Positions 26,481 to 38,887 of a stretch of 40,005 bases of DNA are shown here, piece by piece. Below the pieces are notes generated by a model. It saw nothing but the letters and a program-made list of their open reading frames with translations, searched no databases and had not been told where the DNA came from. Within the stretch, counting starts at the first letter, position 1; each line of letters opens with the position of its first letter. Origin of the DNA: Gemmatimonadota bacterium. GTDB taxonomy: Bacteria > Gemmatimonadota > Gemmatimonadetes > Longimicrobiales > Gaopeijiaceae. The stretch spans positions 1 through 40,005 of the forward strand of contig VXOC01000075.1 in assembly GCA_009840215.1 (NCBI GenBank). Direction: 5' to 3'. The position numbers and the translations under genes were made by a program.

Positions 26481-27107
26481 CTACAGCCCCTTCAGCACCT
26501 CCAGAATGTCCTCATTCGTCGGACGCACCCGGTAGTCCACCTCCACGAAGCGGTACCGCACCACCCCCTCCTTGTCGATTACGTACGTGGCGGCGTGCGG
26601 CAGCGGCCTCCTGCGCGACGAGTCCTCGTTGAACAGGCCATACCGGTCGATCACCGCGTGGTCCGGATCCGACAGCATCACGAAGTCGGGCATGACCCCG
26701 TCATCCTCCGAAATCCGGTCGATCATCCTCTTCATCCCCTCGCGGTCGTCCACCGAGACCGTGACCACCTCCGTCTGTTCCCTGAGTTCGTCGGGGAGAA
26801 GGGCTCTCAGCTCGCCGAGCTGACTGGCGCAGTAGGGTCACCAGTGGCCCCGGTAGAAGACCAGCACCACGAACTTCTGCCCGCGGAAGCTCGCCAGCTC
26901 CACCGCTTCGCCGCCGTACGACGCCAGGGTGAAGTTCGGCGCCTCGTCGCCCACGGCCACCCGCTCCAGGTCGGCGCGGGGCAGTTCGCGGCCGTCCGCG
27001 GGTCCAAGCTCCTGCGCGTGCGCGGCGGACGCGGGCCCATCCGCGACAAACAGGGCGAGGAGCGCGAGGGCGCATGCGGTGACCAGGGATCGGATCGAAG
27101 TTCTCAT
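26481..27107 (-). CDS. Exported peroxiredoxin-like selenoprotein (in-frame TGA = Sec90)
   Basis: Read through one TGA at 26840-26838, this is a single 208-residue protein from ATG 27107. It has a signal peptide (SLVTACALALLALF, cleavage near AHAQ), then DEAPNFTLASYGGEAVELASFRGQKFVVLVFYRGHW, the TGA, and PYCASQLGELRALL. Relatives have FYRGxWCPYC at this point, so the TGA replaces the first redox cysteine, giving U-P-Y-C (Sec90, Cys93). The part after the TGA carries the expected AhpC/TSA strands (VVTVSVDD, YVIDKEGVVRYRFV). A SECIS-like hairpin follows the TGA. Expected role: periplasmic thiol- or Sec-dependent peroxide or disulfide reduction. The alternative, a nonsense mutation, is less likely given the exact position and the second case at 38231. 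Divergent from asnB. Confidence 0.8.
26808..26822 (-). promoter_or_regulatory. Candidate bacterial SECIS hairpin (first selenoprotein)
   Basis: Counting the T of TGA as 1, nucleotides 19-24 (CAGCTC) pair perfectly with 28-33 (GAGCTG) around a GGC loop starting at 25. Bacterial SECIS elements need a short apical loop with G in its first two positions at about this distance; both conditions are met. Confidence 0.6.
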
Positions 27108-36796: not shown

Positions 36797-36821
36797 CAGC
36801 ACCACCACGCTCTCCATTCTC

Positions 36822-37580
36822 ATGGCCGGGGCCGGCGATCCTTCGCCCGCCCCGGCCGTCTTTTTCCTCCTCCAGGAGACGACCGGCGGGCTCTCCGAAA
36901 CACTCGCGTCCAACCCGCTGCTGGCCCTGGCCGTCCTCTTCGGCGCGGGTGTCGCGACCAGTCTGACCCCCTGCGTGTATCCGATGATCCCCATCACCGC
37001 CTCGGTGATCTCGGGGACCGCGCGCGACCGGCAGCCGTGGAGGCGCACCCTGGGGCTCACCATGACCTACGTCACGGGGATGGCGCTGCTCTACGCCGTG
37101 CTCGGACTGGTGGCGGGCTTGACGGGGACGCTGTTCGGCACGGTGAGCGCGAGCCCGTGGGCGCTGCTGGCCATCGGCAACCTGCTGCTCCTGTTCGCGC
37201 TGGCCATGTTCGACGTGATCCCGGTGCGGGTGCCGCAACGCCTTCTGGCGTGGGCGGGAGGGCGCGAGGGGGGCTCCTATGGGGCCGTCTTCGTGCTCGG
37301 GGCCACATCCGGGGTGGTGGCGGCGCCGTGCGGGGCGCCCGCCTTCGCGGCGGTGCTGGCGTGGGTGGCCGCCACGCGGGCGGGGTTCATGGGATTCGTC
37401 TACCTCTTCGTCTTCTCCATCGGGATGACCGCGTTGCTGGTGGCGGTGGGGCTCTTCACGGGGACGATTTCGCGGCTGCCGGAGTCGGGGAAGTGGATGG
37501 TGACGGTCAAGCGGGTGGCCGCAGTGATCATGCTGGGGGTTGCGCAGTATTATTTCGTCCAGGCGGGGTATAATTTGTAG
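36822..37580 (+). CDS. DsbD/CcdA-like transmembrane thiol-disulfide reductase
   Basis: 252 residues from ATG 36822; no ribosome-binding site is evident and GTG codons near 36782, overlapping the previous gene, are possible. Six or more transmembrane helices are visible. LTPCVYPMIPIT (about 48-59) and VVAAPCGAPAFAAV contain the paired intramembrane cysteines of the DsbD-beta/CcdA family, which carry electrons from cytoplasmic thioredoxin across the inner membrane. The N-terminal and C-terminal soluble domains of full DsbD are absent. The exported thioredoxin encoded 96 bp downstream is the natural acceptor. Confidence 0.85.
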   Translation: MAGAGDPSPAPAVFFLLQETTGGLSETLASNPLLALAVLFGAGVATSLTPCVYPMIPITASVISGTARDRQPWRRTLGLTMTYVTGMALLYAVLGLVAGLTGTLFGTVSASPWALLAIGNLLLLFALAMFDVIPVRVPQRLLAWAGGREGGSYGAVFVLGATSGVVAAPCGAPAFAAVLAWVAATRAGFMGFVYLFVFSIGMTALLVAVGLFTGTISRLPESGKWMVTVKRVAAVIMLGVAQYYFVQAGYNL

Positions 37581-37643
37581 GGGCGTGTGGACCGGCCAAC
37601 ACACAACATGGAAAGACGGGTTTCCATAATGTCAACTTTACTA

Positions 37644-37652
37644 TACTATTTG
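37644..37652 (+). promoter_or_regulatory. TACWWTWTG promoter-like box (copy 3)
   Basis: TACTATTTG sits in an AT-rich patch between the DsbD-like and thioredoxin genes; TATACT (37642-37647) within it is a good -10 hexamer. It ends 24 nt before the GTG start, with AGGAGG in between, so the thioredoxin gene may have its own promoter. Confidence 0.45.
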
Positions 37653-37676
37653 TCCCCAGCCAGGAGGACTTCAGCC

Positions 37677-38291
37677 GTGAGAACACATCTGCCCGGAACT
37701 CACGACTTCCGGCTGTCCGCCGCCGCGCCCTCACGCGCCGCTGCCTGCGTCACCCTCGCCCTGGTCCTCGCGCTCCCTGCCGCCGTCACTGGCCAGGAGC
37801 CGGAGGACGGACTGGGCCTCCCAACCGGCACCCCGGCCCCCGACGCACAGGTGGAGGACATGGAAGGCAACGAAATCTCCCTCCTCGAGGTCATCAATGG
37901 GCGTCCCGCGCTGATCGAGTTCTGGGCGTCGTGGTGTGAACAGTGCGAGTTGCTGCAGCCCGAGATCGACCGCGTGCAGGAGCGGTTCGGGGAGAAGGTG
38001 GCGGTGGTGGCGGTGGCCGTGGCGGTGTCGCAGTCACGCCGCAGGGTGCGCCGCCACGTGGAGCGGCACGCACCGGGGTATGACTTCCTTTACGACGCGA
38101 ACGGCGAGGCCGTGAGAGCGTACAAGGCCCTCACGACCTCGATCGTGGTGCTGGTGGATGGGGAAGGCCGGGTGGTCTCAACCGGCGTGGGGCCGAAGCA
38201 GGAGCTGGTGAAGGCGCTGGAAACCCTCCTTCAGGAACCCTCCTCCGGCTCCGGCGTCACCTCGTCGATCGCGGCGGCCAGCTCGTCGTAG
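37677..38291 (+). CDS. Exported thioredoxin-like (TlpA-type) protein
   Basis: 204 residues from GTG 37677, with AGGAGG about 9 nt upstream and the promoter-like box just before; the frame extends to 37587 but that covers the promoter. A signal peptide (ACVTLALVLALPAAVTGQ) is followed by GTPAPDAQVEDMEGNEISLLE and the active site FWASWCEQC (Cys87, Cys90). CEQC is unusual compared with CGPC or CxPC. A Val/Ala-rich stretch (VAVVAVAVAVS) replaces the usual strand. Its 3' end overlaps the convergent selenoprotein gene by 61 bp. It probably takes electrons from the DsbD-like protein. Confidence 0.85.
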   Translation: MRTHLPGTHDFRLSAAAPSRAAACVTLALVLALPAAVTGQEPEDGLGLPTGTPAPDAQVEDMEGNEISLLEVINGRPALIEFWASWCEQCELLQPEIDRVQERFGEKVAVVAVAVAVSQSRRRVRRHVERHAPGYDFLYDANGEAVRAYKALTTSIVVLVDGEGRVVSTGVGPKQELVKALETLLQEPSSGSGVTSSIAAASSS

Positions 38292-38815
38292 GCGGTCGGA
38301 TCCGTCTGTCTGAACTGAGGGATCACCTTGGCCACGCGGCCGTCAGGACCGATCACGATCACGGCGCGGCTGCCCACCATCCCGTTGTCCCGGGGCGTCC
38401 CGCCGAACGCGGCGAAGGAGGCGCTCTCGGCATCCGAGCCGAACAGGTAGGGGAAGTCCTCGTCCTTCAGCCATGAGGCGCCCTCTTCGGCCGAGTCGTT
38501 GGAGATCGCCATGAGCACCACGTTGCGGCCCTCGTTGAACAGTTCTGCGTACTGATCACGGTACGCTCTCATCTGAACCGTTCAGCCACGCGTCCTGACT
38601 CTGAAGAAGAACGCGAGGACCACCGTTTCGCCGCGGTAGTCGCTCAGCCGGACCTTGTCGCGGAGGACGCCGTGACGGGTCGCTCCGGTCAGCTCGAAGT
38701 CGGGGGCAATCGCCCCCACCTCGATGAGGCCGGTCTCCTGCGCCGTGGCGCCTTCCGGCGCGCCCATCCCGATCACGGCGGCCAGCGCCGCCGCCACCAA
38801 CAGTCTGCGCATCAT
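38231..38815 (-). CDS. Exported peroxiredoxin selenoprotein (in-frame TGA = Sec78)
   Basis: Read through one TGA at 38584-38582, the frame gives a 194-residue protein from ATG 38815 (GGAG 9 nt upstream). Signal peptide RLLVAAALAAVIGMGAPEGATAQ; then VGAIAPDFELTGATRHG, LSDYRGETVVLAFFFRVRTRG, the TGA, and TVQMRAYRDQYAELF. Relatives have RTRGCTVQM here, so the TGA replaces the peroxidatic cysteine. VLMAISNDSAEEGASWLKDEDFPYLFGSD and AVIVIGPDGRVAKVIPQF are usual peroxiredoxin strands. A SECIS-like hairpin follows. Expected role: periplasmic peroxide reduction. It lies 84 bp after the creatininase gene and converges on the thioredoxin gene. A nonsense mutation is possible but unlikely. Confidence 0.82.
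38547..38566 (-). promoter_or_regulatory. Candidate bacterial SECIS hairpin (second selenoprotein)
   Basis: Counting the T of TGA as 1, nucleotides 19-24 (GCGTAC) pair perfectly with 33-38 (GTACGC). The 8-nt loop starts at 25 and has G at its second position. GTTC at 7-10 can also pair with GAAC at 40-43, giving a longer stem. Geometry equals that at 26808-26822 although the sequences are unrelated. Confidence 0.62.
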
Positions 38816-38855
38816 TTCGTTTTCTCCGTTCTCGGTTCACCCGATACCTGTGCAC

Positions 38856-38887
38856 ATGAGTATATGAGTATGTGAGTATGTGTGTCG
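38856..38887. repeat. 8-bp tandem repeats upstream of selenoprotein gene
   Basis: Three units of ATGAGTAT (the third starting with G) and a degenerate fourth lie between the creatininase gene and the selenoprotein start. On the minus strand they present CATACT/TATACT hexamers that could act as a -10 box. Copy number of such repeats can vary and alter promoter strength. Confidence 0.45.

Follow-up and report, generated by a model that had tools for sequence, protein, structure and literature searches.

Introduction

Peroxiredoxins share the active-site motif PxxxTxxC. PrxU of Eubacterium acidaminophilum is said to have been described as a selenocysteine (Sec)-containing peroxiredoxin by Sohling in 2001. 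TxxU Sec peroxiredoxins (PF00578/COG1225) appear in lists from the Sargasso Sea survey onwards, according to an excerpt of it (PMC1088965), and an excerpt of the GOS survey gives 253 TxxU peroxiredoxin sequences (PMC2398784). The motif PxxxTxxU is called highly conserved in Sec peroxiredoxins in the accessible part of a 2026 review (PMC13188914); what is said here of Pro in the Sec peroxiredoxins of other phyla comes from that statement. In Caulobacter, ScsB, TlpA and PprX form an envelope peroxide reduction pathway, as outlined in the accessible part of its description (PMC5403849).

The window considered here, the whole stretch of 40,005 nt that was analysed, comes from a bacterium of the phylum Gemmatimonadota and encodes a peroxiredoxin with an in-frame TGA. 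By comparison with its homologues, this catalytic-site TGA almost certainly encodes selenocysteine. There is high confidence in the fuller reading, in which SelB and a hairpin would direct Sec into a probably exported 1-Sec peroxiredoxin; that a TlpA-DsbD pair resolves it is, taken by itself, about as likely as not. The gene shares with the TxxU Sec peroxiredoxins the AhpC/TSA family, Sec at the peroxidatic site, the TxxU motif and a predicted bacterial SECIS element right after the UGA. It differs from them in having Phe for Pro, a putative signal peptide, no resolving Cys and a weak score against the PrxU model. As TxxU peroxiredoxins already appear in the Sargasso Sea and GOS surveys, the kind is known; the branch described here, a probably exported 1-Sec form without the Pro and with DsbD/TlpA genes alongside, is a variant of it.

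The gene and its in-frame TGA

The sole internal stop in the frame is the TGA at codon 78, in the context RTRG-U-TVQM (Table 1). The N-terminus, MMRRLLVAAALAAVIGMGAPEGATA followed by QE, resembles a signal peptide by eye, and similar N-termini occur in the few homologues inspected; the protein is probably exported. In 12 pairwise comparisons with relatives, dN/dS was 0.06–0.26 over the 45 codons 5′ of the TGA and 0.07–0.40 over the 54 codons 3′ of it. The gene is under purifying selection on both sides of the TGA. An Rfam scan of the window gave no match, and ARAGORN found no tRNA in it. Short ATGAGTAT/GTGAGTATGTG-like repeats lie upstream of the gene, at ~38855-38882.

Table 1. Features of the selenoperoxiredoxin locus and related genes in the window.
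Feature	Position	Strand	Remarks
Selenoperoxiredoxin CDS	38231..38815	minus	194 aa; ATG at 38815; terminator TGA 38233-38231
Sec codon UGA (almost certain), residue 78, peroxidatic position	38582..38584	minus	TGA 96, TGC 3 of 99 loci
Putative signal peptide, ~residues 1-25, ending GATA before QE	38741..38815	minus	By eye from sequence
Possible ribosome-binding site GGAG, 8 nt 5′ of ATG	38824..38827	minus	By eye
Predicted bSECIS apical hairpin GCGUAC-CGUGAUCA-GUACGC	38547..38566	minus	Exact 20-mer in 110/122 Sec, 0/46 Cys regions
Prx-like selenoprotein FYRGHW-U-PYC (UxxC), the "first" gene	26481..27107	minus	TGA 26840-26838
TlpA/ResA-like thioredoxin-fold protein, WCEQC; proposed reductant	37587..38291	plus	Convergent; 3′ ends overlap with the peroxiredoxin gene
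DsbD-like transmembrane electron transporter; proposed electron source	36816..37580, start not fixed	plus	DsbD_TM PF02683, E=2.3e-47

Homologues and the catalytic codon

Homologues of the gene were collected at the level of the order and of the phylum. A match at E<=1e-25 was present in 96 of the 154 genomes of the order. The loci examined number 100 including the window gene, one of which stops short of the site; some genomes yield two loci, and in G031 the gene is split over two contigs. The catalytic codon is TGA in 96 and TGC in three of the 99 loci covering the site, with 93 genomes carrying the Sec form and three the Cys form. TGA is also found in 80/80 loci of a named genome collection (the best 80 of 234 confirmed relatives), which partly overlap the order set. 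The titles in this collection are mostly Gemmatimonadota/Longimicrobiales, with a few others such as three Gammaproteobacteria and one Euryarchaeota.

A homologue in Sec or Cys form was matched at E<=1e-35 in 306 of 395 genomes drawn from the phylum. A chosen sample of 70 mostly lower-scoring genomes plus 11 others, with 90 loci altogether, gave 101 hits, 100 of them with the site. The catalytic codon was TGA in 54, TGC in 43 and TGT in 3, counts which are not phylum rates, because Cys forms were chosen on purpose and some genes were fetched twice.

These data bear on several statements of a first-pass annotation of the window. It had described 38231-38815, without giving the strand (minus), as a complete 194-codon peroxiredoxin frame with a TGA as its only interruption, and translation confirms this. 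It placed the TGA at the cysteine of RTRG-C-TVQM, and homologues without Sec do carry Cys exactly there. The alignment around RTRG(C/U)TVQM that it proposed has now been made, with Cys as the non-Sec residue in 3/99 loci of the order and 46/100 of the phylum sample. Its view that a chance mutation or a sequencing error is very unlikely holds in light of the TGA in 96/99 loci and the purifying selection on both sides.

Some further observations concern the wider set of matches. Adjacent Cys and Sec copies of the gene occur in four genomes of genus g77 (L289-L292). Matches on plasmids came to 24 records, all below 60% identity, and no relative was found among viral contigs. Sec encoded by UAG was considered for matches that bear a TAG and was rejected: L285-L288 read TGC at the catalytic site and carry their TAG close to the C-terminus, and those of the other TAG-bearing matches whose site was read have TGA there. 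As a terminator, TGA is rarer in Sec-form genes (51/143) than in order-level neighbour genes (106/159; p 9e-8) or Cys forms (25/46; p 0.04), in a comparison of unmatched sets made without kinship correction and with the 159 neighbour genes not deduplicated.

The predicted SECIS hairpin

The accessible part of the 2026 review (PMC13188914) gives rules for bacterial SECIS (bSECIS) elements: a loop of 3-9 nt, a stem of 4-16 bp, a G in the first two loop positions, a distance of 16-37 nt from the UGA and an MFE <= -7.5. In the window gene, a 20-nt hairpin begins 15 nt after the UGA, with a UGA-to-loop distance of 21 nt, a 6-bp stem, the 8-nt loop CGUGAUCA and G at the second loop position. It conforms to all of these rules, to the energy term only when flanks are included (-7.0 kcal/mol for the bare 20-nt hairpin, -18.5 for a 61-nt stretch).

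The hairpin goes with the Sec form across 168 distinct 60-nt regions (122 Sec, 46 Cys). The exact 20-mer occurs in 110 of the Sec regions and none of the Cys regions, and all six stem pairs are possible in 121/122 versus 4/46. As the stem is almost invariant, no covariation could be counted. Among 93 distinct Sec genes, silent positions within the hairpin are frozen on otherwise rare codons: AGA makes up 0.97 of the 40 Arg codons at +5 (background 0.04), CGT 0.97 of 93 codons at +8 (background 0.14) and GAT 0.98 of 92 at +9 (background 0.24).

Folding energy was dropped as an argument. Against randomisation of synonymous codons, the energy of the SECIS region is unremarkable (<0.05 in 6/122; median 0.19), as the stem is nearly fixed by the residues AYRDQYA that it encodes. 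The window's own stretch has a fold z-score of -1.84, with 9/200 shuffles folding as well. The energy is thus weak as proof of a SECIS and the case rests on the frozen codons, by which the hairpin 3′ of the UGA is, as far as sequence conservation indicates, a bacterial SECIS element. SelD and both Prx-like genes of the host genome lack this 20-mer, having other sequences 3′ of their TGA.

Selenocysteine decoding and other selenoproteins

The host genome (4.09 Mb, 94.6% complete) encodes a tRNA-Sec with anticodon UCA (79.7 bits) and, on the same contig, SelB (312 bits, model positions 2-344 of 581), as well as SelA (494 bits) and SelD (385 bits), all four above cut-off. SelD has an in-frame TGA of its own in HGAG-U-ACKLG. 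The Sec-decoding host implied by the first-pass annotation is thereby borne out, and the absence of selB or tRNA-Sec, which it named as a finding that would count against Sec, does not apply to this genome.

The Sec form and SelA also occur together across the order. With SelA matched at E<=1e-60, 87 genomes have both, 6 the Sec form only, 19 SelA without the Sec form and 42 neither (Fisher p ~1e-16, without kinship correction). Of the 19 SelA genomes lacking the Sec form, 18 have no homologue at the cut-off and G149 has the Cys form; the 42 with neither include G114 and G126, both with the Cys form. The Sec-form genomes in which SelA was not matched are G052, G098, G099, G112, G117 and G150, with completeness of 63-95%; G150 is listed as 95% complete.

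The AhpC-TSA matches in the host genome number 23, three with a TGA, of which two lie in the window and the third on contig C308. The first-pass annotation counted two selenoperoxiredoxins in the window. Both TGA genes are real, but the gene at 26481-27107 belongs by its motif to the Prx-like UxxC selenoproteins, whose active-site layout differs from that of the TxxU gene, and not to the TxxU family. It was matched in 39 of 78 genomes searched, and all 40 matches including the window gene contain exactly one TGA, counted within each match and not at an aligned position. The UxxC and TxxU genes also lie ~3-13 kb apart in G033, G014, G032, G041 and G046. A paralogue of the UxxC gene (L129; G000 contig C308, ~1350-1974) has UPFS instead of UPYC, making it UxxS.

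Family and fold

The protein matches the profiles AhpC-TSA (PF00578, E=7.4e-21, above the gathering cut-off) and Redoxin (PF08534), and PF00578 is matched by all 26 aligned homologues. Its best solved sequences are the peroxiredoxin-like/BCP entries 2ywn, 4g2e, 3hjp and 2cx3. An AlphaFold2 model built from 26 aligned relatives, with Cys replacing Sec, has a mean pLDDT of 84.9, falling to 67-68 at residues 51-70 around the active site; only the C-terminal tail is lower. The 50 Foldseek matches listed are peroxiredoxins or BCP by title, apart from one "Redox protein", with query TM ~0.7, and the closest folds are those of BCP and 2-Cys peroxiredoxins. Scores against curated models fell short of their cut-offs, at 48.6 bits for PRK09437 (cut-off 140) and 39.9 bits for NCBIfam PrxU NF040737 (cut-off 270). 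The protein therefore shares its best solved relatives with the PrxQ/BCP thiol peroxidases, but differs from them in having Sec for Cys, putative export, the loss of Pro and a PRK09437 score below cut-off.

The active site

The motif PxxxT/SxxC(U) is only partly preserved in the window gene, where Thr75 and Sec are present and Pro is replaced by Phe. At the 96 order-level Sec loci, this position is Phe in 93 and Tyr in 3, and all three Cys loci have Pro. The hits of the phylum sample show Pro in 46/46 Cys forms, and F in 19, Y in 15, P in 17 and I, V and S in one each of the 54 Sec forms. Counted as distinct sequences, Pro occurs in 43/43 Cys forms, and the 50 Sec forms have F in 19, Y in 15, P in 13 and I, V and S in one each. 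Pro is hence not always lost with Sec, yet every Cys form examined keeps Pro.

Thr, the Sec/Cys site and R123 (numbering of A1) are invariant in 26 aligned sequences, R123 being presumably the catalytic Arg of the peroxiredoxin family. Among the 96 order-level Sec forms, 94 retain the Thr of TxxU; it is replaced by Gly in L090 (RVRGGG-U) and by Ser in L093 (KVRSPG-U).

The history of the Pro/Sec pairing was followed on a quick 129-row tree from which the Sec/Cys and Pro columns had been left out. The tree contains 10 Sec/Cys changes and 9 Pro/non-Pro changes. The Cys forms L111-L113 are placed among Sec+Phe rows under a starred branch, and this nesting suggests Sec-to-Cys changes accompanied by a return of Pro. 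Supported branches give four independent pairs, in which Pro changes with Sec in 2.7 on average, in the opposite direction in 0 and without a difference in 1.3 (sign test, p 0.25). With so few supported pairs and this p value, the Pro/Sec pairing is a pattern and not a proven dependency.

The window protein has no Cys besides the Sec site, and so has no candidate for the resolving cysteine of 2-Cys peroxiredoxins. No other Cys lies within the 50 residues before the site in any of the 99 order loci. Past the site, none was seen at 96 loci (three of them truncated by a contig end), and at the other three the final residue is the one further Cys. Another Cys occurs in 1 of 51 distinct Sec forms and 0 of 43 Cys forms of the phylum sample. 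A mature domain lacking a resolving Cys indicates a 1-Sec enzyme that would require an outside reductant. L102, L106 and L108 are Sec forms with an extended C-terminus that closes on one Cys (...PAGDC in L102), which might act as the resolving residue.

Neighbourhood and a putative electron relay

Genes for a TlpA-like protein and a DsbD-like transporter are common neighbours of the selenoperoxiredoxin. Among the best 80 of 234 confirmed relatives, TlpA lies within ~3 kb in 64 and both genes do so in 62, and none of the three neighbours tested for was found within that distance at 14 loci. TlpA is present at 75 of 98 loci of the order set, 74 times convergent and downstream. In the phylum sample, where most flanks are ~1-1.5 kb, it was seen at 23/90 loci and not at the other 67.

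The arrangement differs between forms. TlpA and DsbD beside the Sec genes of the order are convergent and not co-transcribed with them. At eight distant Cys-form loci, TlpA is upstream and on the same strand as the peroxiredoxin gene in an operon-like arrangement, with the order TlpA-prx-DsbD in five, DsbD-TlpA-prx in two and no DsbD in view in one.

A DsbD/ScsB-type transporter and TlpA, the genes that such a relay needs, are thus both encoded near the window gene. The Caulobacter ScsB-TlpA-PprX pathway, in the accessible part of its description (PMC5403849), likewise joins a DsbD-type membrane transporter, a TlpA-like thioredoxin and an envelope peroxiredoxin in one relay. It is the best analogue of the putative relay in the window, whose presumed peroxidase differs in being a predicted selenoprotein and is linked to its proposed partners by neighbourhood. 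By this analogy, the chances are about even that the protein works in the envelope as a peroxidase supplied through DsbD and TlpA, as in Caulobacter.

Discussion

The observations can be joined in a single scheme. SelB, guided by the hairpin 15 nt past the UGA, would place selenocysteine at the peroxidatic position, and Sec is presumably inserted at this UGA in the living cell. The protein would be exported, and its selenolate would attack H2O2 or organic peroxides to yield a selenenic acid, with Thr75 and the conserved Arg completing the usual peroxiredoxin pocket. An external dithiol protein, most likely the neighbouring TlpA-like protein, would resolve the selenenic acid, and the neighbouring DsbD-like transporter would re-reduce the TlpA-like protein with cytoplasmic electrons. 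The selenoperoxiredoxin is presumed to have peroxidase activity.

A lone in-frame stop in an otherwise intact frame fits, at first sight, a pseudogene, that is a cysteine peroxiredoxin with a nonsense mutation or a sequencing error. This has virtually no chance of being correct when the same TGA recurs in 96/99 loci from many assemblies, selection persists past it and silent sites of the hairpin are frozen; the conserved TGA together with the conserved downstream frame rules it out. UGA reassignment occurs in other bacteria, which provides a precedent for UGA being read here as another amino acid (e.g. Trp, code 4), or by leaky read-through without selenium. However, such a reading was rejected as extremely improbable, since the homologues without TGA all have Cys at the site (3/3 in the order, 46/46 in the phylum sample), UGA is an ordinary terminator (106/159 neighbour genes, not deduplicated) and the genome has complete Sec machinery.

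A genuine Sec protein on this fold may not scavenge peroxide at all but act as a thiol-disulfide or other envelope redox protein, as could be argued from the canonical Pro lost in 96/96 order Sec forms, the lack of a resolving thiol, the frequent adjacency to disulfide-reducing TlpA/DsbD genes and the equivalog models PRK09437 and PrxU being matched only far below their cut-offs. The position of Sec in TxxU is nevertheless the peroxidatic one and is not CxxC-like. Thr, the Sec/Cys site and Arg do not vary in the 26 aligned sequences, Thr persists in 94/96 order Sec forms, the closest solved sequences are BCP-like and the closest folds are BCP and 2-Cys peroxiredoxins. A role other than peroxide scavenging is therefore unlikely, and the exported 1-Sec peroxiredoxin remains the preferred reading.

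Implications

Among selenoprotein and tRNA-Sec surveys and reviews, the main texts of PMC13188914, PMC9312934, PMC2398784 and PMC5330540 do not contain Gemmatimon*, and that of PMC5029168, from the same literature, does not contain Gemmatimonad*. No title among the top-ranked literature matches for selenium terms concerns Gemmatimonadota selenoproteins, which does not prove their absence from the literature. According to the accessible part of one study, about half of its Challenger Deep MAGs carry sel genes and Gemmatimonadota belong to its active clusters, with no link drawn between the two and no protein named there (PMC8938466). Accessible parts of PMC9727886, PMC10143001 and PMC8318568 name the phylum merely as present.

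Selenoprotein genes are easily mistaken for broken genes. The family described here occurs, in Sec or Cys form, in 306 of 395 sampled genomes of a phylum that goes unnamed in the main texts word-searched. That Pro, in the sequences examined, is lost only alongside Sec raises a directly testable question, namely what retains Sec at a place where Cys would suffice, and the neighbouring Sec and Cys copies within genus g77 offer natural controls for comparing the two. A broader proposal, drawn from the sequence comparisons and put forward tentatively as somewhat more likely to be wrong than right, is that this is a phylum-wide, exported and largely Sec-committed peroxiredoxin branch in which Sec relieved the constraint on the active-site Pro, and which may be the final peroxidase in a selenium-based DsbD-TlpA relay of the envelope. 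If this is true, Sec would not be a drop-in for Cys but a condition for a differently built pocket.
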